Of a DNA stretch of 64,000 bases, positions 43,056 to 50,127 are shown piece by piece. The stretch is from Lysobacteraceae bacterium NML07-0707. Lineage in GTDB: Bacteria; Pseudomonadota; Gammaproteobacteria; Xanthomonadales; Xanthomonadaceae. The notes under the pieces are model-generated. The model was not told the DNA's origin. It made no database searches and saw nothing but the letters and a program-made list of their open reading frames with translations. Each line of letters starts with the position of its first letter. The first letter of the stretch is position 1. The stretch is taken from NCBI GenBank assembly GCA_002798295.1, contig NWQT01000007.1, positions 1-64,000 on the forward strand, read 5' to 3'. The position numbers were made by a program, and so were the translations under genes.

Positions 43056-43076
43056 TGGTGAAGGGGGGACTCGAAC
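43056..43076. repeat. Left attachment site of the element (attL)
   Basis: tggtg (43056-43060) directly followed by aaggggggactcgaac (43061-43076). The 16 bp core is identical to 50051-50066 inside tRNA-Leu; three bases (cgg) present in the tRNA are missing here, as expected for a displaced tRNA end no longer under selection. Confidence 0.8.
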
Positions 43077-43153: not shown

Positions 43154-43404
43154 TGCTTCGCTTGCCCGGATGTTGGGGGCAATCGCAGCCTGTCACCACC
43201 CCTGCAAACTGCCCAGCATCAGGTGCGCCCTATGGCAAGCGGCCATGCTTTCCAGTAGCAGGCTTTGTGCGCTCACCTACCCCTTGCGATTCTTGCGATT
43301 TCTGCGATTCGGGCAGGCCGTCCTATCAAGGATGCTGGCCTGCCCATCAGGCTTCTTTTACCCACTCAAAGAAGCAGTAGCCACCACTACTTTAGTGAGC
43401 CCCC
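43154..43404. other. Non-coding left arm of the element
   Basis: 250 bp past the cysteine-rich gene. Apart from repeat array 1 (43284-43310), nothing supported was seen. Confidence 0.45.
43284..43310. repeat. Iteron-like array 1: three 9-bp units
   Basis: ttgcgattc, ttgcgattt, ctgcgattc; exactly 27 bp, non-coding left arm of the element. Same unit as arrays 2-4. Confidence 0.85.
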
Positions 43405-44052
43405 CTATTCAGCTTTGTTATTACCCGCCTTATCCAAGACCTTCGGCCAGAACTCTTGGCACGCATGTAACTGCATTGCCCATCTGGAGCGGTGGCCGAC
43501 ACTGCATTGACCAGTGCCAGCCGCAGGGTTGCCGGGGTAAGGAAGGAAGAATACGCAGTCACCACAGGGCACCATCGGCCTTGGGAGGCTTACCCCGGCC
43601 AGCCGATGCAGGCACCAAGGGCAGGCCTGCAAATGGTCAGGGTGTCCCTCTGGCATCCATACAGCGCCGCAGCCATCGCAATAGGCTTTCTTGGTAAACC
43701 CTTCTGGCAGTCTGCCCATCGCCATCTGCCTTCCTTCTGCCACTGTATGCAGGTATCGCCTGCGGTCATAGAGGGGCAAATCCTCTGCCGCTTCAAGGTC
43801 TGCATCACTCAAGCCGTGGACTGTCTCCAGTGGCAGCCACTCATCGGCACACAAGGCCAGCCAGCGCGCGCGTCGCAGGGCTGGGTTCGCCTCATTGCAA
43901 ACCATCCCCCCCTGCGATTCTTGCGATTCTTGCGATTTTGCCCCCGTGGTTTGAAGTGTTCCCCCCTGCGATTCTTGCGATTCTTGCGATTCGCCCCGGG
44001 CTTCAGTGGCTTCCCGGGGCGAGTTCTTCAACAGGTTGGCAAGCGCGCCCAT
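43405..44052 (-). CDS. Element-encoded cysteine-rich protein with ESQ repeats
   Basis: 215 residues, start at 44052 overlapping the upstream stop by one base (TAATG). Residues 21-29 and 40-47 are tandem ESQ units encoded by the 9-bp repeat arrays. The C-terminal half has paired cysteines at 125/128, 144/147, 163/166, 183 and 198 (CDGCG, CPWC, CGDC), suggesting one or two zinc sites. No family was recognised. As last gene of the replication operon it may bind DNA or modify replication, but that is inference. Confidence 0.7.
   Translation of the reverse strand: MGALANLLKNSPREATEARGESQESQESQGGTLQTTGAKSQESQESQGGMVCNEANPALRRARWLALCADEWLPLETVHGLSDADLEAAEDLPLYDRRRYLHTVAEGRQMAMGRLPEGFTKKAYCDGCGAVWMPEGHPDHLQACPWCLHRLAGVSLPRPMVPCGDCVFFLPYPGNPAAGTGQCSVGHRSRWAMQLHACQEFWPKVLDKAGNNKAE
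43912..43938. repeat. Iteron-like array 2: three 9-bp units (inside the cysteine-rich gene)
   Basis: ctgcgattc, ttgcgattc, ttgcgattt; 27 bp, 54 bp from array 3. The two arrays lie in a partial duplication of ~54 bp. Confidence 0.85.
43966..43992. repeat. Iteron-like array 3: three 9-bp units
   Basis: ctgcgattc, ttgcgattc, ttgcgattc; 27 bp, coding for ESQESQESQ of the cysteine-rich protein. Confidence 0.85.
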
Positions 44053-46112
44053 TACTGTTCGGCTTCCAGATTCATGCGCCAGACGCGCGCGCGGTTCCTG
44101 CCATCCACATCTGCACCGCCCTCTATGTATTCCGCCCATCCCGTAGCTTCCAGCACGGACATGGCTTCATTGAATGCGGCTGCCGTGCGGATGCAGCTTG
44201 GTCCTTTGTTCATGGCTACCGTGGAGTAGAGCAAATCCCGGCCTGTCTCCCGGCACCAGCCAAGCAACGCTTCCGCGTGGCGAATCTTGGCCGGTACGCT
44301 GGCCGTCCCCACGATGCGCGCGGCCTCGGTCAAGTAATAGTCCATCAGCACCAGCGCCCGGTTCAGCGTGTCACGGTTGATGGTGGTGGCGCCTGGCTTT
44401 TCCACCAAGGCCAGCACGCCCGCAATGCGCAGCGCTTGGTGAGAACCTTTGCTTGCCCATGCTTTGACGTGTGCATATTCATCACGCATGGCGAACTCAA
44501 TGGCGTTATGCGCCTCCACCCATAGCGCCTTTGCCTCTGGCTCCAAGGTCAGCGCGCGCGGCTCCAGCTCGTTCACCGAACCATCACGCACCGGCAGCGG
44601 CAGGTTCAGCAGCTCATCGATGCGCAGCCAGTAGCGGCACAAGGCCGGGTCTTGTGTCAGGTCGGTTGCCACATATAAGCGCGTCCCTACAGTGCTTTGC
44701 GGCCATGCCATCAGGCATCGGGGCAGAAAGCCTTGCCCGGTCAGCAGGTCATCGGACAACACGCCCTCGGCAATCACGGGCTGCACCATCACATGCAAGG
44801 CAAAGCGCCGCCCGTAGAACTTGGCCGCGCCATCCCCTGCCCTTACGCGGGAGAACTGCCCGCTGTCCCATAGCTTGGACATGCCCGCCGCAGTTTTGGC
44901 GCGATTGTCCCGGTTCATTGCATTGCCCCCCAGAAAATCGCCCGCGTCATCATTGAACAAGCCAAGGCTTGGCTTGCCGATTTGAAACAGCTTGTGCAGT
45001 CCTTCAAGGGTCGGCTCGTCCAGCAGCAGCCACGGCGCCAAGGGCGCGCGCGGTTCATCCTCCAAGCGCATCAGCGCCTCGCGCAGGTTGCCCGCTTTCT
45101 TTTGCTCTGCCTCTTTGACCTTGCCCTTGTAGATGCGTTCCTCTATCTCAAACGCCTTCTTGTCGGCTTGGTACTGTTCCAACTGCAAGCGTTCATGCGC
45201 CCGGTGCGCTTGCAAGGCGTAACGCTCCACCCCAGTTTTCCGCTCGCCTGAATCCCCCACGGTCACAAGCCACAGGCTCAAGGGTTCCCGCCTGCCGTCG
45301 ATATGCACGTCTGCCAGCGCCTGCACTGCCAAGCTGGCAGCGGCAAGGATGGACTGCCCGGCCAGCGCCGCCGGGCATTGAATCACCTCATGCAAACGCT
45401 TGGCCGCTGCGCCCAAGACTTCGCCCAAGGCATCCAGTGGGTATGGCTCCCCCGGTGGCAGCGCACGCCGCAGCGGTTCAGGTGCAAAGCCAGCCAGCCT
45501 TGCTTCTGGCGCATTCATCTCCGCGCGCGGCAGGGCTTCCACCTCTGCCGACGTTGCGTCCGGGTTCGCGGTCAGCCAGTCCACGCAATCGCCCTTGTCC
45601 GGCAAATCAAGGCTTGCCACCTCGACTGCTTCCACCGTGCAGCCAATGGCGGCAAGGCGCGCGCGCAGGGCTTCGGCATACTTCCCGCCCGGCTTGTCAT
45701 TGTCAGGCCAGATAATGACGTGACGGCCTGCCAGTGGCGATAGGTCAGCCGTGCCCGCGCTGTCTGCCGCTCCGGTGGTGGTGACGGTCACGGCCAGCTT
45801 GGCAAGGGCATCAGCGCAGCTTTCGCCCTCCACCATCCAGACAGGCCGGGCAGGGTCAGCGGCCAGCAACTCCGGCAGCCGGTACAGCAGCTTGCCCGCC
45901 TCTGATGCTGGCGGTTCTCCAATGGCGAAGCCGCCCCCATTGCGCTTCATTGGCCGTATCCACTTCCGGCCATCCGCGTGCTTGCAGCGGATGCGCCAAA
46001 AAACCGGAACGCCATCAGCGCTCCGGTACTCGTGCAGGGCTTGTAGCTGGAAGCCATCCTTAATGGCAGGGGCAGCCAATCGGCGCGCGACTTCTTTGGG
46101 GGATTCAGTCAT
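44052..46112 (-). CDS. TOPRIM / DUF3987-type replication protein (primase-helicase-like)
   Basis: 686 residues. Residues ~85-180 form a TOPRIM domain with Glu95 (VWMVEGESCADAL) and the DxD pair Asp137/Asp139 (HVIIWPDNDKPGG). Residues ~230-680 resemble DUF3987/YfjI with a P-loop at 286-293 (GDSGERKT; the usual second Gly is replaced), helical insert 300-350 and an ATPase-like core. Together with the CHC2 protein upstream (4 bp overlap) it forms a split version of the P4 alpha-like or phage-type primase-helicase. It probably starts replication of the excised element. No Walker B was assigned with confidence. Confidence 0.8.
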   Translation of the reverse strand: MTESPKEVARRLAAPAIKDGFQLQALHEYRSADGVPVFWRIRCKHADGRKWIRPMKRNGGGFAIGEPPASEAGKLLYRLPELLAADPARPVWMVEGESCADALAKLAVTVTTTGAADSAGTADLSPLAGRHVIIWPDNDKPGGKYAEALRARLAAIGCTVEAVEVASLDLPDKGDCVDWLTANPDATSAEVEALPRAEMNAPEARLAGFAPEPLRRALPPGEPYPLDALGEVLGAAAKRLHEVIQCPAALAGQSILAAASLAVQALADVHIDGRREPLSLWLVTVGDSGERKTGVERYALQAHRAHERLQLEQYQADKKAFEIEERIYKGKVKEAEQKKAGNLREALMRLEDEPRAPLAPWLLLDEPTLEGLHKLFQIGKPSLGLFNDDAGDFLGGNAMNRDNRAKTAAGMSKLWDSGQFSRVRAGDGAAKFYGRRFALHVMVQPVIAEGVLSDDLLTGQGFLPRCLMAWPQSTVGTRLYVATDLTQDPALCRYWLRIDELLNLPLPVRDGSVNELEPRALTLEPEAKALWVEAHNAIEFAMRDEYAHVKAWASKGSHQALRIAGVLALVEKPGATTINRDTLNRALVLMDYYLTEAARIVGTASVPAKIRHAEALLGWCRETGRDLLYSTVAMNKGPSCIRTAAAFNEAMSVLEATGWAEYIEGGADVDGRNRARVWRMNLEAEQ

Positions 46113-46477
46113 TGCCTGCCCTCCACCAAGTCGCGCGCCGCTTCGGCAAACCCTTTGCCGGTCAGGCGCTCATGAAAGCTCACCATGTCGCCACAGCCAC
46201 AGCCAGCAAAGCAGCGCCAGCCGCCATGCTGGAAGTTCACGCTCAAGCTTTCGTGCGAATCATCGTGCAGCGGGCAGCGGCCTTGTGCCCAGCCTTTCCC
46301 GTTCGGCTTGCCCAGCCGATCGACACGCGCGCGGTAGTAGCGTTCAGGTGAAGGCAGCCACCGCCGCCAGTCGCTGGGCAACTTGCCCGGACGGCGATAA
46401 ACTCCCCACATACCAAGGCCGCCCGCTTTGGAATACTGCCCCCGGTCTCGCCCGGGGGTTTTTCTTGCCTGCTTCAT
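46109..46477 (-). CDS. CHC2-type zinc-finger (primase-like) protein
   Basis: 122 residues from ATG at 46477. The zinc finger is CPLHDDSHESLSVN (Cys68, His71) followed by WRCFAGCGCGDMVSF (Cys89, Cys93/95), the DNA-binding module found at the front of DnaG. The TOPRIM part lies on the next gene, whose ATG overlaps this stop by 4 bp. Upstream sequence up to 46621 stays open but is outside the family. Primer-site recognition for the element is the likely role. Confidence 0.78.
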   Translation of the reverse strand: MKQARKTPGRDRGQYSKAGGLGMWGVYRRPGKLPSDWRRWLPSPERYYRARVDRLGKPNGKGWAQGRCPLHDDSHESLSVNFQHGGWRCFAGCGCGDMVSFHERLTGKGFAEAARDLVEGRQ

Positions 46478-46568
46478 GCCTCGCCCTCCATTGCATCGCC
46501 GCGCTTCGGTCGACGGGGCAAGGTGCAAACCGCGCGCGTAACGGCATATTCGTTTGCAGGTTGCATGC

Positions 46569-46826
46569 TCATGCACTGCCCCCCATTGTCTCGTCACGCT
46601 TCGGCCAGCGGGGCAAAGCATTTGCTGCGCGCGCGAAGGCCGTCAGCGGCACCGCCCCTTTGTCCATATAAAAGCCAAGGTGGTGCAGCTCGTCCATGAT
46701 GGCGCGCACACCATCACCATATCCACCACAAAGCTCAACCATCCAAGCGCGACCGCCTGCCCGGGTCATCTGCAATACCGTGCCATCAGGCATCAGCATC
46801 TTCGGGGTTTCGGTATTCAGTTTCAT
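46569..46826 (-). CDS. Small element protein, function unknown
   Basis: 85 residues, start at 46826 overlapping the upstream AlpA-like gene by 4 bp. The sequence MVELCGGYGDGVRAIMDELH and FYMDKGAVPLTAFARAANAL suggests a small alpha/beta protein. No family was recognised. It lies between the AlpA-like regulator and the CHC2 gene in the same operon. Confidence 0.6.
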   Translation of the reverse strand: MKLNTETPKMLMPDGTVLQMTRAGGRAWMVELCGGYGDGVRAIMDELHHLGFYMDKGAVPLTAFARAANALPRWPKRDETMGGSA

Positions 46827-47149
46827 GCCTGCACCTCCTTGGTATCGCGCGCGGCAATGCGCGCAGTAATCCACGCCTGCACTTCAGACAGCGGCCATGC
46901 GCTCGCCTTGCTTCCGACCTTGACCGGCTTCGGGAACCTGCCAAGGCGAACAAGCCGATAAATCCCACTGCGAGACAGGCCAGCAAGGCTTTGCACTTCC
47001 GGCAATCGAAGCAGCGCATCCCCTTGACCGATGACCGTTTGCAAGGTGTCGGCCTTGGCTTGGCCTGCATCTTGTGCAGCCGATGCGCCGCCGGTTACAA
47101 GACGGAGCTTCCCCTTCCCGTTGTGCCGGGCTTCGGTATTCACGTTCAT
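46823..47149 (-). CDS. AlpA-family transcriptional regulator
   Basis: 108 residues. A ~45-residue N-terminal tail precedes the AlpA HTH (LLRLPEVQSLAGLSRSGIYRL, then RLGRFPKPVKVGSKASAWPL and EVQAWITARIAARD). AlpA/Vis-type proteins regulate or assist excision by integrases of P4-like elements. It starts 15 bp downstream of the second HTH gene. Position before the replication genes fits a switch role. Confidence 0.85.
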   Translation of the reverse strand: MNVNTEARHNGKGKLRLVTGGASAAQDAGQAKADTLQTVIGQGDALLRLPEVQSLAGLSRSGIYRLVRLGRFPKPVKVGSKASAWPLSEVQAWITARIAARDTKEVQA

Positions 47150-47164: not shown

Positions 47165-47386
47165 TTAAGCAGCGTTATGGCGCGCGGCCAGACGTTCAGC
47201 CAGCCAGCTTTCAAGGCTGGCTGCCGGATAGCGAACGCTTCGCCCGACATGAACGAAGGTCGGACCACTGCCTTCCTTGCGCATGTTCAGCAGCGTGCTG
47301 GCGCTCACGCGCAGCCGTGCGGCCACCTCCTTGACGGTCAACATCCCGTCGTGCGCCTCCGGTTTTTGGGGTGTCTCTTGCTTCAT
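47165..47386 (-). CDS. Small helix-turn-helix (excisionase-type) protein
   Basis: 73 residues. The MerR-like winged HTH (MLTVKEVAARLRVSASTLLN, then RKEGSGPTFVHVGRSVRYPA and LESWLAERL) is typical of excisionases and phage regulators of the helix_turn_helix_17 type. It could be the Xis partner of the integrase or a second regulator beside AlpA. A GGAG ribosome binding site lies 9 bp upstream. It starts the second block of the operon after a 239 bp gap. Confidence 0.8.
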   Translation of the reverse strand: MKQETPQKPEAHDGMLTVKEVAARLRVSASTLLNMRKEGSGPTFVHVGRSVRYPAASLESWLAERLAARHNAA

Positions 47387-47625: not shown

Positions 47626-47976
47626 TCAGGTGCGAGCGGATTGCACTTTGGCAGGCGTGATTGCCATGCACTCCAGCCTTTCGCTGATGTTCTGGATTTC
47701 ATCCAGACAAACCTTCAGCGCCATGCGCAGGCCAAAGGCAATGTCTGCCGTAAAAGGCGCGGGCAGTGTTTCCGGGTTGTCATCCCATGCCCTCTCTTCA
47801 GTAAGGTTCAGGTCTGCATGAATCAAGCGGAAAAGTTCACCTGCCCCGGTTGATGCTTCCAGCAGGCAGGCGACCAAGTGATGCGCGCCAATGTTGTGCG
47901 GCCATTGCGGTTCGCAGTGCGGGTTCACGACAGGGCGCGCGCTTGGTGCGGGGCTGGCTTTGGCTTTGACTTTCAT
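47626..47976 (-). CDS. Small element protein, function unknown
   Basis: 116 residues, start overlapping the upstream gene stop by 4 bp. Helical and acidic middle (TGAGELFRLIHADLNLTEERAW) and a C-terminal helix (RMALKVCLDEIQNISERLEC). It carries His/Cys but no clear zinc motif. Similar small acidic genes often follow the leader of P4-like elements. Function unknown. Confidence 0.6.
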   Translation of the reverse strand: MKVKAKASPAPSARPVVNPHCEPQWPHNIGAHHLVACLLEASTGAGELFRLIHADLNLTEERAWDDNPETLPAPFTADIAFGLRMALKVCLDEIQNISERLECMAITPAKVQSART

Positions 47977-48263
47977 TCCAAACCCTCCAAGTGTTCGGCC
48001 ATATCCTCACGGTCACAGTTGGTCAGGCAACAAAACTCACAGGCCAGATAGCTCGCGGCCTCGGCCAGCGAAACAATGCGCAGCGCGCCCGGTGCGTTCA
48101 ACGCGCGCGCTTCCTCGGCAATGATTCGGCACAGCTCGCGCAGCCACTCCAGCGCCTCGCTGGCGCTTTGCAGTGACGAAAGCACATCTTCAGGGGGACG
48201 GCCAAACAGCGCCGTGCAGGCGTCGGCAGGGGCGCACTTGGGCGCGGTAGCGGTCTTGCTCAT
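47973..48263 (-). CDS. First gene of the element operon, small helical protein under leader-hairpin control
   Basis: 96 residues, with three clustered Cys (LACEFCCLTNC). Its ribosome binding site AAGGA is buried in the 9 bp hairpin at 48267-48293, three bases before the ATG. In P1 and P4 the first open frame behind the antisense leader plays the role of translational gate; this gene occupies that place. No family was recognised. Confidence 0.6.
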   Translation of the reverse strand: MSKTATAPKCAPADACTALFGRPPEDVLSSLQSASEALEWLRELCRIIAEEARALNAPGALRIVSLAEAASYLACEFCCLTNCDREDMAEHLEGLE

Positions 48264-48266
48264 GTT

Positions 48267-48293
48267 GGATTCCTTGTACGAGTTAAGGAATCC
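48267..48293 (-). promoter_or_regulatory. Hairpin sequestering the ribosome binding site of the first operon gene
   Basis: Minus strand GGATTCCTT, 9 nt loop AACTCGTAC, AAGGAATCC: perfect 9 bp stem. The 3' arm contains AAGGA, the Shine-Dalgarno for the ATG at 48263. Opening or pairing with the antisense RNA would change translation. Confidence 0.75.
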
Positions 48294-48299
48294 GCCACG

Positions 48300-48524
48300 C
48301 CGCTGCTAAACGAGGTGGCGGACGACGCGGGGTTAGCAGACCGGGTACAAGGAACCGGCAGGGCGTGCCGCCCTCCCCGCGCCGCCCGCCATTGAAGGGG
48401 CTGCGCTGCGCAACAGGTCGCCGCCGATGGGCGGACAAAGAAAAAGCGCCAGGCATCGGAAGGATGGGCGCTGCTGCGCCTTGTACATCGGGCTGCTAAA
48501 CCCGGCAGTGGGATTCACCACTGC
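48300..48524 (-). ncRNA. C4/CI-type antisense immunity RNA region of the P4-like element
   Basis: On the minus strand three related sites occur: A (48505-48479), B (48352-48326) and C (split: 48311-48303 and 48281-48272). B contains CCTTGTAC then CTGCTAACC and is the reverse complement of A (GTTTAGCAG then GTACAAGG) over ~25 nt with few mismatches, and of both C blocks. The second C block covers the ribosome binding site of the first gene. GC-rich hairpins lie between A and B. This is the A-B-C plan of phage P4 CI RNA (seqA, seqB, seqC) and P1 C4. RNA ends are estimates. Confidence 0.65.
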
Positions 48525-48530
48525 ACCATA

Positions 48531-48559
48531 AGTAAATCACACTTATTCTATGCAGTCAA
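48531..48559 (-). promoter_or_regulatory. Promoter of the element leader operon
   Basis: Minus strand TTGACT (48559-48554), 17 bp spacer, TTTACT (48536-48531). Predicted start ~48524, just ahead of site A. Confidence 0.6.
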
Positions 48560-48593
48560 GTCCCATATCGTCCCAATACATCCCATATCATCC
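48560..48593. repeat. 10-bp periodic tandem repeats upstream of the leader promoter
   Basis: tcccatatcg, tcccaataca, tcccatatca begin at 48561, 48571 and 48581, in phase with the DNA helix and abutting the -35. Likely operator. The reverse complement TGGGAC recurs near the integrase start. Confidence 0.75.
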
Positions 48594-48618
48594 AGTAGCA
48601 TGGGGTGCTGCCTACCCA

Positions 48619-48645
48619 GAATCGCAGGAATCGCAGGAATCGCAG
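48619..48645. repeat. Iteron-like array 4: three 9-bp units, inverted
   Basis: gaatcgcag three times, exactly 27 bp; reverse complement of the unit in arrays 1-3. Lies between the integrase stop and the leader operator. Confidence 0.85.
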
Positions 48646-48649
48646 CCCC

Positions 48650-49855
48650 TTACCCAGCAAGATTGAACGCCACCACGTTACCCACCCCTGCCCGCAGGCT
48701 GTCCAGATAATCCGCCCATGCCTGCATAGCCTTGTGCCGTTCCATGATGAACGCCGTTCGGTCATAGGCTTTCTGGACTTCATCCTTCTTGGCATGGGCA
48801 AGCTGTGCCTCCAGTACATCAGCAGGCACGCCCAGCCGCTCCCGCGCCACTGTTCGGAACATCCCACGGAAACCATGTGTGGCGTGCGTGCCCTGCAATC
48901 CTCTATCGCGTAACGCCTTGCTCAAAGCATCCCGGTGCAGGTGTGGCGTGGTCTGCCGTGCCAAGGGCGGGAATACGTACTGGCTTCCGTAGGTGTATGC
49001 CTGCATCTGTCGCAACGTGTCCACCGCCTGCCGGGACAGGGGCACGATATGCGCATGGCGGGTTTTCATCTTGGCAGCCGGGATAGACCATTCAGCGGCC
49101 TGCAAGTCCACCTCTGCCCATTCCATCGCCACCACGTTACCCGGCCGCTGCGCGGTCAGCATGGCAATACGCAAGGCCGCGCGCGTGACAGGGGTCGGGT
49201 AGCTTTCCACCGCCTCCACTACACGCCTTACGTCTACCAAGTCCACCGCCGCCGGGATATGTCCCTTGGTAGCTTTCGGAACTGCCCCGCGCAATGACAG
49301 CACGCGCCCATCTTCCCGCAAGCCTTCCTGCATGGCATAGGTCATGATGCGCTGTAAGTAGCTGCGCGCCAGAACAGCAAGCGCTGGAGGAATCTTGCCA
49401 AGCGCATTGCTTGCTGTCTTGCTTGTCAGTGTGGCAACAGACTGCCCTCGCAAGGCCGGGACAAGATAGCCATCGATGATATAGCTCGCCTTCTTCAAGG
49501 TCGCCGGTGCCCATGACTGCCGATGCCTTGCCATCCATGCCCCCGCCACCAAATGAAAGGCGGCCTCCGCTTCCTGTTTCGCTTTCGCCTTGCGCTCCGC
49601 CTTCAGCAGTGCAGGGTCTAGACCATCCCGAATCAGGGCGCGCGCGCTGTCAGCCCTGGCACGCGCATCAGACAAAGACAGCCCAGCCCCCAGCGATAGC
49701 CGATTCTCCCGGCCATCAGGCCGCCGATATTTCAGATACCAGCGCTTGCCCCCTTTGGCTGTCACCTCGACATAAAGCCCGCCGCCGTCAAAGTGCTTTC
49801 CCGGCTTGGCATTCTTCACCGCCAAGACTGTCAGGCGTTGCGTGATTGCCCCCAT
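48650..49855 (-). CDS. Tyrosine-type site-specific integrase
   Basis: 401 residues, start at 49855 with a GGGAGG ribosome binding site. The N-terminal DUF4102/arm-binding region (LTVLAVKNAKPGKHFDGGGL) marks the P4/prophage-type integrase. Catalytic residues: Arg237 (LTAQRPGNVV), His327-x-x-Arg330 (THGFRGMFRT) and nucleophile Tyr364 (KAYDRTAF). It inserted the element in tRNA-Leu. The gene reads away from the tRNA, with the attP arm repeats in front of it. Confidence 0.95.
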   Translation of the reverse strand: MGAITQRLTVLAVKNAKPGKHFDGGGLYVEVTAKGGKRWYLKYRRPDGRENRLSLGAGLSLSDARARADSARALIRDGLDPALLKAERKAKAKQEAEAAFHLVAGAWMARHRQSWAPATLKKASYIIDGYLVPALRGQSVATLTSKTASNALGKIPPALAVLARSYLQRIMTYAMQEGLREDGRVLSLRGAVPKATKGHIPAAVDLVDVRRVVEAVESYPTPVTRAALRIAMLTAQRPGNVVAMEWAEVDLQAAEWSIPAAKMKTRHAHIVPLSRQAVDTLRQMQAYTYGSQYVFPPLARQTTPHLHRDALSKALRDRGLQGTHATHGFRGMFRTVARERLGVPADVLEAQLAHAKKDEVQKAYDRTAFIMERHKAMQAWADYLDSLRAGVGNVVAFNLAG

Positions 49856-49876
49856 GTCAGAACCTCCCAAAGCTGA

Positions 49877-49930
49877 TTGCCCCAAATTGCCCCAAATTGC
49901 CCCCACGTTGCCCCCAAAATTGCCCCCTGA
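49877..49930. repeat. Five TTGCCCC repeats, right arm of the attachment region
   Basis: Units start at 49877, 49887, 49897, 49908 and 49920 (spacing 10, 10, 11, 12 bp). The last two equal 43129-43151 in the left arm. They lie between integrase and tRNA-Leu. Confidence 0.8.
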
Positions 49931-49945
49931 AATGGCTGGCTTTAA

Positions 49946-50035
49946 TGGGACGTACTGGGACTATACTGCACAAAAAAATCCAGTAAACCCTTGCTTTCAC
50001 TGGGTGTTACTGGACTTGCTGGGACTTCTTGGGAC
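49946..50035. repeat. TGGGAC repeats between integrase and tRNA-Leu
   Basis: TGGGAC at 49946, 49956, 50020 and 50030, with weaker units at 50001 and 50011; pairs are 10 bp apart. The same motif, inverted, forms the operator-like repeats at 48560-48593. Confidence 0.7.
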
Positions 50036-50042
50036 TATAAGT

Positions 50043-50127
50043 TGGTGCGGAAGGGGGGACTCGAACCCCCACGCCTTGCGGCACTGGAACCTAAATCCAG
50101 GGCGTCTACCAATTCCGCCACTTCCGC
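50043..50127 (-). tRNA. tRNA-Leu(TAG), integration target
   Basis: 85 nt class II tRNA with encoded CCA. Acceptor GCGGAAG pairs with CTTCCGC, anticodon loop TTTAGGT between CTGGA and TCCAG, T-arm GGTTCGAGTCC. Its 3' end supplies the 16 bp attachment core at 50051-50066. The tRNA is intact. Confidence 0.95.

Follow-up and report, generated by a model that had tools for sequence, protein, structure and literature searches.

A C4-type antisense RNA circuit ahead of the replication operon of a small tRNA-Leu-borne element

The element and its C4 RNA

The locus lies in a 64,000-nucleotide stretch of DNA from Lysobacteraceae bacterium NML07-0707 (contig NWQT01000007.1; hereafter the window), inside an element that, judged by its sequence, is a satellite-like tRNA-Leu integrant of about 7.0 kb (Table 1). 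The size follows from the att cores at both ends and from empty sites in the sister genomes G012, G001 and G009, where tRNA-Leu directly adjoins tig; att repeats together with an empty site in relatives identify the element as one of the class that integrates in tRNA genes. At 43060 the attR side, CTTCACCATATCGG, is three bases short of the tRNA end present in the empty sites (L030/L031), CTTCCGCACCATACG. The genes run in the order integrase, C4 region, ORF1, ORF2, HTH_17 protein, AlpA-like protein, zinc-ribbon protein, DUF3987 protein and ORF7. The nearest named integrase, from a Lysobacteraceae bacterium, is 55% identical, and ORF1 has homologues in three sister elements (63–72%). Related elements with integrase, C4, ORF1 and ORF2 occur in three genomes of the same genus, the one at L144 being the most complete.

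Table 1. Features of the element in the window, in minus-strand order
Feature	Position	Strand	Evidence or remark
attL core GTTCGAGTCCCCCCTTC (17 nt)	50050..50066	-	3′ end of tRNA-Leu(TAG)
Tyrosine integrase, arm-type domain (Pfam)	48650..49906	-	Pfam, PHROGs
-35-like TTGACT, 5/6 consensus bases	48554..48559	-	same place as TTGACA in sister elements
-10-like TTTACT, weak, 4/6 consensus bases	48531..48536	-	TGTACT, TGTACT, CCTACT in L012, L016, L021
Site A	48479..48502	-	complementary to a′ and b′; sub-threshold c4-a1b1; shuffles
a1 TTTAGCAG (site A)	48500-48493	-	sequence
b1 GTACAAGG (site A)	48486-48479	-	sequence
Candidate antiterminator hairpin GGCGC-AGCA-GCGCC	48467..48480	-	three-part motif in homologues; first GG is the end of b1
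Candidate intrinsic terminator AGCGCC...GGCGCT and T tract	48437..48472	-	motif, folding; sub-threshold isrK match
C4 antisense RNA	48311..48396	-	RF01695 match; fold
b′ seed CCTTGTAC	48352-48345	-	loop of GCCGG/CCGGT inside C4 fold
a′ seed CTGCTAA	48339-48333	-	inside C4 fold
a2 TTTAGCAG, first half of split site C	48310-48303	-	seed match, shuffles
b2 GTACAAGG(AA), second half of site C	48279-48272	-	overlaps Shine-Dalgarno; seed match, shuffles
Hairpin GGATTCCTT/AAGGAATCC	48267..48293	-	fold; 3′ arm holds Shine-Dalgarno, loop holds part of b2
ORF1, 96 aa, first operon gene, ATG 48263	47973..48263	-	no family match
ORF2, 116 aa	47626..47976	-	no family match
HTH_17 protein	47165..47386	-	PHROGs, Pfam
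AlpA-like protein (PF05930)	46823..47149	-	PHROGs, Pfam
Primase zinc-ribbon protein (PF01807)	46109..46621	-	Pfam
DUF3987 primase/helicase	44052..46112	-	Pfam, PHROGs
attR core GTTCGAGTCCCCCCTTC, identical 17 nt	43060..43076	-	repeat of attL core

None of the ten element ORFs scanned with PHROGs had a structural phage protein as its best match. The HTH_17 protein has a further match to a small-terminase family (2e-6), ranked behind an excisionase family and probably due to its helix-turn-helix. The scans of the element proteins named no C1-like repressor, neither ORF1 nor ORF2 had an antirepressor match in Pfam or PHROGs, and general scans of the element named no homologue of orf45, anrP or antQ. 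The AlpA-like and HTH_17 proteins are encoded downstream of the C4 RNA, which bears on the suggestion of the original prediction, made from the DNA letters and their open reading frames, that this circuit needs no repressor protein of the usual kind.

Several further sequence features accompany these genes. In sister elements an int-alpA RNA (RF02996) lies 3′ of ORF2 (L142:10322-10391, L143:9459-9525, L144:8230-8296); the window gave no match to it between 46700 and 47900. Direct repeats of the TGGGAC type, 10 bp apart, are found at 48560-48600, by the C4 promoter, and at 49936-50039, by attL; the copies at the promoter are kept in the sister elements L012, L016 and L021, and either the integrase or the AlpA-like protein may bind these repeats. 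Clusters of the repeat TGCGATTCT(T) at 43280-43322, 43908-44004 and, inverted, 48616-48645 flank the replication operon at both ends and form a candidate replication origin, recalling the annotated ori/crr repeats of P4.

The Rfam search named in the original prediction gave a match to the C4 antisense RNA family (RF01695) of 72.9 bits against a gathering threshold of 45 (E 2.7e-12 for the whole window), spanning the complete model (positions 1-87 of 87). The segment folds at -53.4 kcal/mol (z -4.4), and 0 of 200 shuffles were as stable. It is the only C4 copy found in the host genome, with GGC at its expected 5′ end. In P1 and P7, C4 is processed from a longer transcript by RNase P.

The predicted series of promoter, site A, RNA, site B and split site C on the minus strand was recovered in full, with a weak promoter that escaped the promoter scan. 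Complementarity between B and A had been put at about 25 nt; the two are indeed complementary, in an interrupted duplex of 8 bp, CCGG/CCCG and 7 bp rather than a continuous one. Complementarity of B to both halves of C was borne out by a2 and b2. Exact a and b cores in the right order and spacing arose in 0 of 20,000 dinucleotide shuffles upstream and 0 of 20,000 downstream, and each of the four pairing sites in the window (L001) outscored every decoy site tested. The c4-a1b1 model (RF03163) aligned to site A below its gathering threshold (36.3 versus 46.7 bits, E 2e-7), as did the isrK model (RF01394) to the leader at 48524-48439 (44.6 versus 50 bits). At the downstream end, b2 continues into the Shine-Dalgarno sequence AAGGA, which is spaced 7 nt from the ORF1 start codon.

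Seeds, partners and a candidate attenuator

Searches for C4 RNAs were positive in 15 of 120 relatives' genomes and, across the order, in 73 of 398, the host genome being counted in both. The first comparison set contained 114 C4 records with 92 distinct seed sets: 28 loci, 25 new loci and 60 fetched regions, one of which has two C4s, with L074 a sequence duplicate; the 60 regions and the 25 new loci are a part of the order-wide matches listed. The larger set contained 157 records, P1 and P7 included, with 111 distinct seed sets.

To assess the b seeds we used anchors chosen without use of the seed, which could be parsed for A in 51 of 92 records and for C in 73 of 92. By this test b1 fitted its own loop at 5/6 positions or better in 39 of the 51 parsed records (non-cognate pairs 2.9%) and b2 in 36 of the 73 (2.6%), and the b seed was concordant at A, B and C in 30 of 92 records, which carry 21 different b seeds. 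For the a seed, with decoys restricted to seeds that differ in at least two positions, 92 of the 111 seed sets had a match at A (non-cognate pairs 3.5%), 62 at C (1.3%) and 61 at both, and a types agreed at A, B and C in 13 of 37. Compensatory changes among A, B and C, on which the original prediction had staked itself, are thus abundant in homologues, and the window RNA, by its sequence and by this covariation, is a member of the C4 family. Since a2 is absent from 49 of 111 seed sets and A is matched in 92, the C half appears to be optional and A mostly kept.

Whole-duplex energies ranked the cognate pair first in only 32/97 (over Bs) and 29/97 (over targets) at A, and in only 11/97 and 3/97, respectively, at C. 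Unanchored best-match tests, with the same restriction on decoys, reached p ≤ 0.05 for b1 in 46, b2 in 35, a1 in 70 and a2 in 48 of 92 records. Both kinds of test separate cognates poorly because of the shared conserved GC and AAGG, and the anchored tests were used instead.

The hairpin over the Shine-Dalgarno sequence is present in 50 of the 62 seed sets with a C site; it is conserved and covaries little, a swapped 5′ arm still pairing in 333 of 739 cases, and by itself would be expected to reduce translation. A second hairpin, joining the 3′ arm of C4 to the sequence after a2, was considered and set aside: at least 6 bp form in 53 of the 62 C-site seed sets, compared with 27% of shuffles and 76% of swapped partners, so it is conserved and does not covary. 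The idea that co-resident elements must differ in seed was likewise dropped. None of 87 within-genome pairs shared a seed where 2.3 were expected (P 0.08), and in one genus (70 loci listed, 35 genomes; the count includes two or three misparsed or sub-threshold loops of the 70) sharing was seen in 1 of 80 pairs where 3.3 would be expected (P 0.14), which amounts to a non-significant trend towards avoidance.

Some genomes are rich in C4 loci. In the genera g30, g64 and g90 (L078, L090, L095, L108, L111) several genomes have at least 10 C4 matches with different loops, many of them at loci where the A site is kept and the next gene lacks a2/b2; one such next-gene product (start MNTSDFRSLHAQ) had no Pfam match. 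Tandem C4 cassettes with different seeds share a single locus at L141 (8637-8720 and 9001-9085) and likewise at L087, each cassette preceding a frame with a similar start.

Upstream of site A, the promoter is the weakest part of the window circuit: the promoter scan called none at the leader at its thresholds. The candidate is backed by TTGACA-17-NNTACT at the equivalent place in the sister elements L012, L016 and L021. Directly 3′ of b1, a three-part motif of GGCGC, GCGCC and GGCGC followed by T residues, which could form either an antiterminator or a terminator hairpin, was found in 67 of the 92 distinct records and in 0 of 1840 mononucleotide shuffles; the strict pattern is missing in the other 25. 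In the larger set the motif is present in 79 of 111 seed sets: 52 of the 62 that have a C site and 27 of the 49 that lack one. The terminator scan, limited to loops of 3–8 nt, did not report the candidate terminator of the window.

Equilibrium folding of the 67 records gave a mean terminator probability of 0.53 for the free leader, 0.96 when the stretch from a1 to the GG was blocked and 0.62 when a block of like size spared the GG. Blocking A through the GG raised the probability by more than 0.05 in 53 of 67 records and lowered it by more than 0.05 in 2. For the window it rose from 0.59 to 1.00, a modest predicted switch, since the free leader already forms the terminator at 0.59. The P1 and P7 leaders have TGCGG/CCGCA/TGCGG in place of the GGCGC triple, and the same block took them from 0.54 to 0.98 (P1) and from 0.18 to 0.96 (P7); in the P4 leader a terminator is present and, by eye, there is no clear GGCGC triple. 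Termination at A has a precedent in the P4 CI RNA, which, according to the accessible text of PMC4825925, causes premature termination via seqA and seqC. We did not find the three-part motif described in the accessible parts of the open-licence literature, and it may well be in print.

These observations suggest a model in which a single transcript from about 48525 would carry site A, C4 and site C, and from which the C4 segment would be excised as a stable RNA, as the P1 and Acinetobacter precedents imply. The RNA would then pair in trans with new transcripts at two points, A and C. At A, its loop is predicted to capture the GG that starts GGCGC, leaving no antiterminator, upon which the terminator would form and transcription would end before the operon. 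On mRNA that has been read through, a′ and b′ would pair with a2 and b2 and mask the ORF1 Shine-Dalgarno sequence, as annotated for P1. The conserved CC of the loop could in this way read two GGs, one in the antiterminator and the other in the ribosome binding site, and the immunity type would be defined by the a and b seeds together, by analogy with P1 and P7. We put the probability that the C4 circuit silences this operon, via A, C or both, at roughly 0.85; in the integrated state it would keep the element's replication operon shut off. Attenuation at A, taken alone, we consider slightly more likely than not.

An action solely at the ribosome binding site, with ORF1 translation blocked, downstream transcription lost by polarity and A left as a titrating decoy or a relic, seems to us rather unlikely. 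It would suit the fully concordant C site of the window, the 61 seed sets in which C is matched together with A, and the P1 annotation, where a2/b2 repress icd ant translation and a1/b1 are merely putative. However, A is the better conserved partner across the 111 seed sets, a2 being the one so often absent, and the attenuator motif lies 3′ of A in 79 of them. We prefer silencing through A, C or both.

A near-identical cassette in a sister prophage

A sister species (genome G012) carries a C4 cassette, L004, that differs from that of the window at 16 of 243 columns (93% identity). Six of the 16 differences are one and the same AG/GA change (or its complement) at a1, a′ and a2. L012 and L021 form another such pair, with 8 differences in 196 columns, 6 of which are the same triple change. 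The a sites of P1 and P7 (TTTGACAG/CTGTCAA/TTTGACAG versus TTTAGCAG/CTGCTAA/TTTAGCAG) differ by this change as well, P1 and P7 differing also in b. A 4-nt deviation between the P1 and P7 C4 RNAs and targets is, in the accessible part of PMC5320573, stated to be enough to restrict cross-action. Between the window and L004 the AG/GA change weakens the predicted duplex at A by 4.1–4.6 kcal/mol and hardly alters that at C; with almost no energy cost at C, full heteroimmunity from this change alone is doubtful. The 4-nt statement on P1 and P7 reportedly goes back to the work of Citron and Schuster in 1990.

That the complementarities reflect palindromic DNA bound by proteins rather than RNA pairing is hardly credible. 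In its favour are the many inverted repeats of the region and the self-complementary GTAC; against it stand the Rfam match, the strand-consistent C4 fold and the concerted seed changes at three sites. Template switching between the inverted repeats A, B and C could be the source of a concerted change at three sites.

The likeness to L004 is confined to the cassette. By segment, the window and L004 are 92% identical in A, 93% in terminator and spacer, 97% in C4 and 90% in C. Identity drops to 50% in the 5′ leader hairpin (20 nt, just ahead of A) and to 40% and 34% in the first and second half of ORF1. Against the satellite relatives L012/L016 the pattern is reversed, with 85% in the 5′ hairpin, 62–80% in ORF1 and 33–77% in the cassette. 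Farther upstream the contrast is smaller, the interval 48720-48506 being 49–52% identical to L012/L016 versus 41% to L004 and 30-nt windows over 48600-48511 being 60–70% versus 37–43%, which makes the upstream border of the cassette soft. These values are from pairwise alignments, in which low identities carry alignment noise, and L021 aligned poorly upstream. The gene directly after the L004 C4 is an antirepressor (PF10547, 1e-35; phrog_524, 3.5e-52), and the contig also carries RecE/RecT. Some 9 to 21 kb farther along come a terminase large subunit, a replication protein and a match to tail fibres. These genes place L004 in a prophage-like region.

The segment identities thus place a prophage-type cassette between a satellite-type leader start and ORF1, and the stretch from A to the start codon may behave as an exchangeable unit. 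Exchange of the cassette between phage and satellite, in some direction, is likely on this comparison. Transfer from satellite to phage, or descent of both copies from a third element, is compatible with that claim, and we rate it only a little below even. Nothing polarises the transfer, since among the C4 loci found in the genus (5 of 17 genomes) only the window and L004 share the b seed. Nothing decisive weighs against this reading either, and a related cassette in the genus, L002 (78–92% by segment), makes a third source possible. An exact pattern of the B seed region had 0 matches in viral contigs, and named phages gave partial matches only (17 records, none covering 80%).

Recent transfer could also have left an inactive relic. 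The near-identity to the prophage cassette indeed suggests a recent common origin, and the genome has a single C4 copy, but neutral decay would not be expected to produce the same change at all three a sites, and the seeds and frames are intact. We consider a relic very improbable and retain a working circuit as the preferred reading.

The presence of nearly one and the same module in this element and in a prophage of a sister species suggests that phages and smaller mobile elements trade such immunity switches. As a more tentative proposal, which we hold to be possible rather than likely, C4 cassettes would be portable immunity keys passed between phages and satellites and acting on a two-point lock, the type of which changes when one pair of bases is altered in concert at all three pairing sites, AG/GA recurring in P1/P7, in the window and L004, and in L012/L021. 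Were the cassette indeed exchangeable, such a two-base change, made at each of the three sites, could determine whether the RNA of a resident phage silences a satellite. The conserved attenuator motif, in turn, would assign a defined job to site A, merely a putative target in the P1 annotation. With this case a small element carried in a tRNA gene joins the P1/P4 class of RNA immunity, and the rise and movement of immunity types can be put into a form open to test.

Comparison with known C4 systems

The circuit as such is already known, and the window is a further C4 case; what may be added is the likely phage-satellite exchange, the joint change of seed type at three sites and the attenuator motif common to many C4 leaders, as they appear in alignments and folding models. 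The RNA and the target upstream of it were listed as conserved structures as early as 2010: the motif table of Weinberg et al. 2010 (PMC2864571, accessible text) includes c4-a1b1 and the c4 antisense RNA, the latter for Proteobacteria and phages. The accessible main text of that paper describes no such carrier element, seed exchange or attenuator.

Each of the two analogies drawn in the original prediction holds for a part of the circuit, the window being P1-like in having C on the ribosome binding site and P4-like in lying before a satellite-like replication operon. RF01695 also matches the P4 CI RNA region (74.9 bits) and P1 C4 (68.8 bits). The P4 leader scores 44.1 bits with c4-a1b1 (gathering 46.7) and 60.8 bits with isrK (gathering 50), and the P1 leader 51 and 35.1 bits, respectively. 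The immI regions of P1 and P7 share with the window the order promoter, a1, b1, C4, a2, b2 and gene (by the P1 annotation), seeds at equivalent places with b2 on the ribosome binding site, and a predicted antiterminator/terminator logic; their a sequences, CTGTCAA in P1 and CTGCTAA in P7, are the two types seen in L004 and the window. They differ from the window in the b seed of the loop and in the first gene, icd/ant there and here ORF1, which has no family match. The arrangement typical of P1 immI, C4 before an antirepressor operon, is found at L004 and not in the window.

As in the window element, the C4 RNA of P4 shares its strand with a primase gene and a regulator of the AlpA/Vis type, and the P4 integrase is annotated with an arm-type domain, as Pfam finds for that of the window. 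Unlike P4, the window element has a replication protein of DUF3987 type with a separate zinc-ribbon protein, and no psu, sid, delta or alpha gene, of the kind that marks P4-like satellites, was named among its ORFs (10 scanned with PHROGs, 8 with Pfam).

The isrK RNA of Gifsy-1 has been compared with the P4 seqA RNA (PMC4825925, accessible text); the window leader aligns to the isrK model, below the family cut-off. For Acinetobacter baumannii, the accessible text of PMC5320573 reports C4-derived multicopy RNAs that are strongly expressed, undergo processing at GGW (or GGC) and have the fold of the window RNA with variable a′ and b′. Those RNAs occur as many chromosomal copies, whereas the window has one copy, in a mobile element that carries its own targets.
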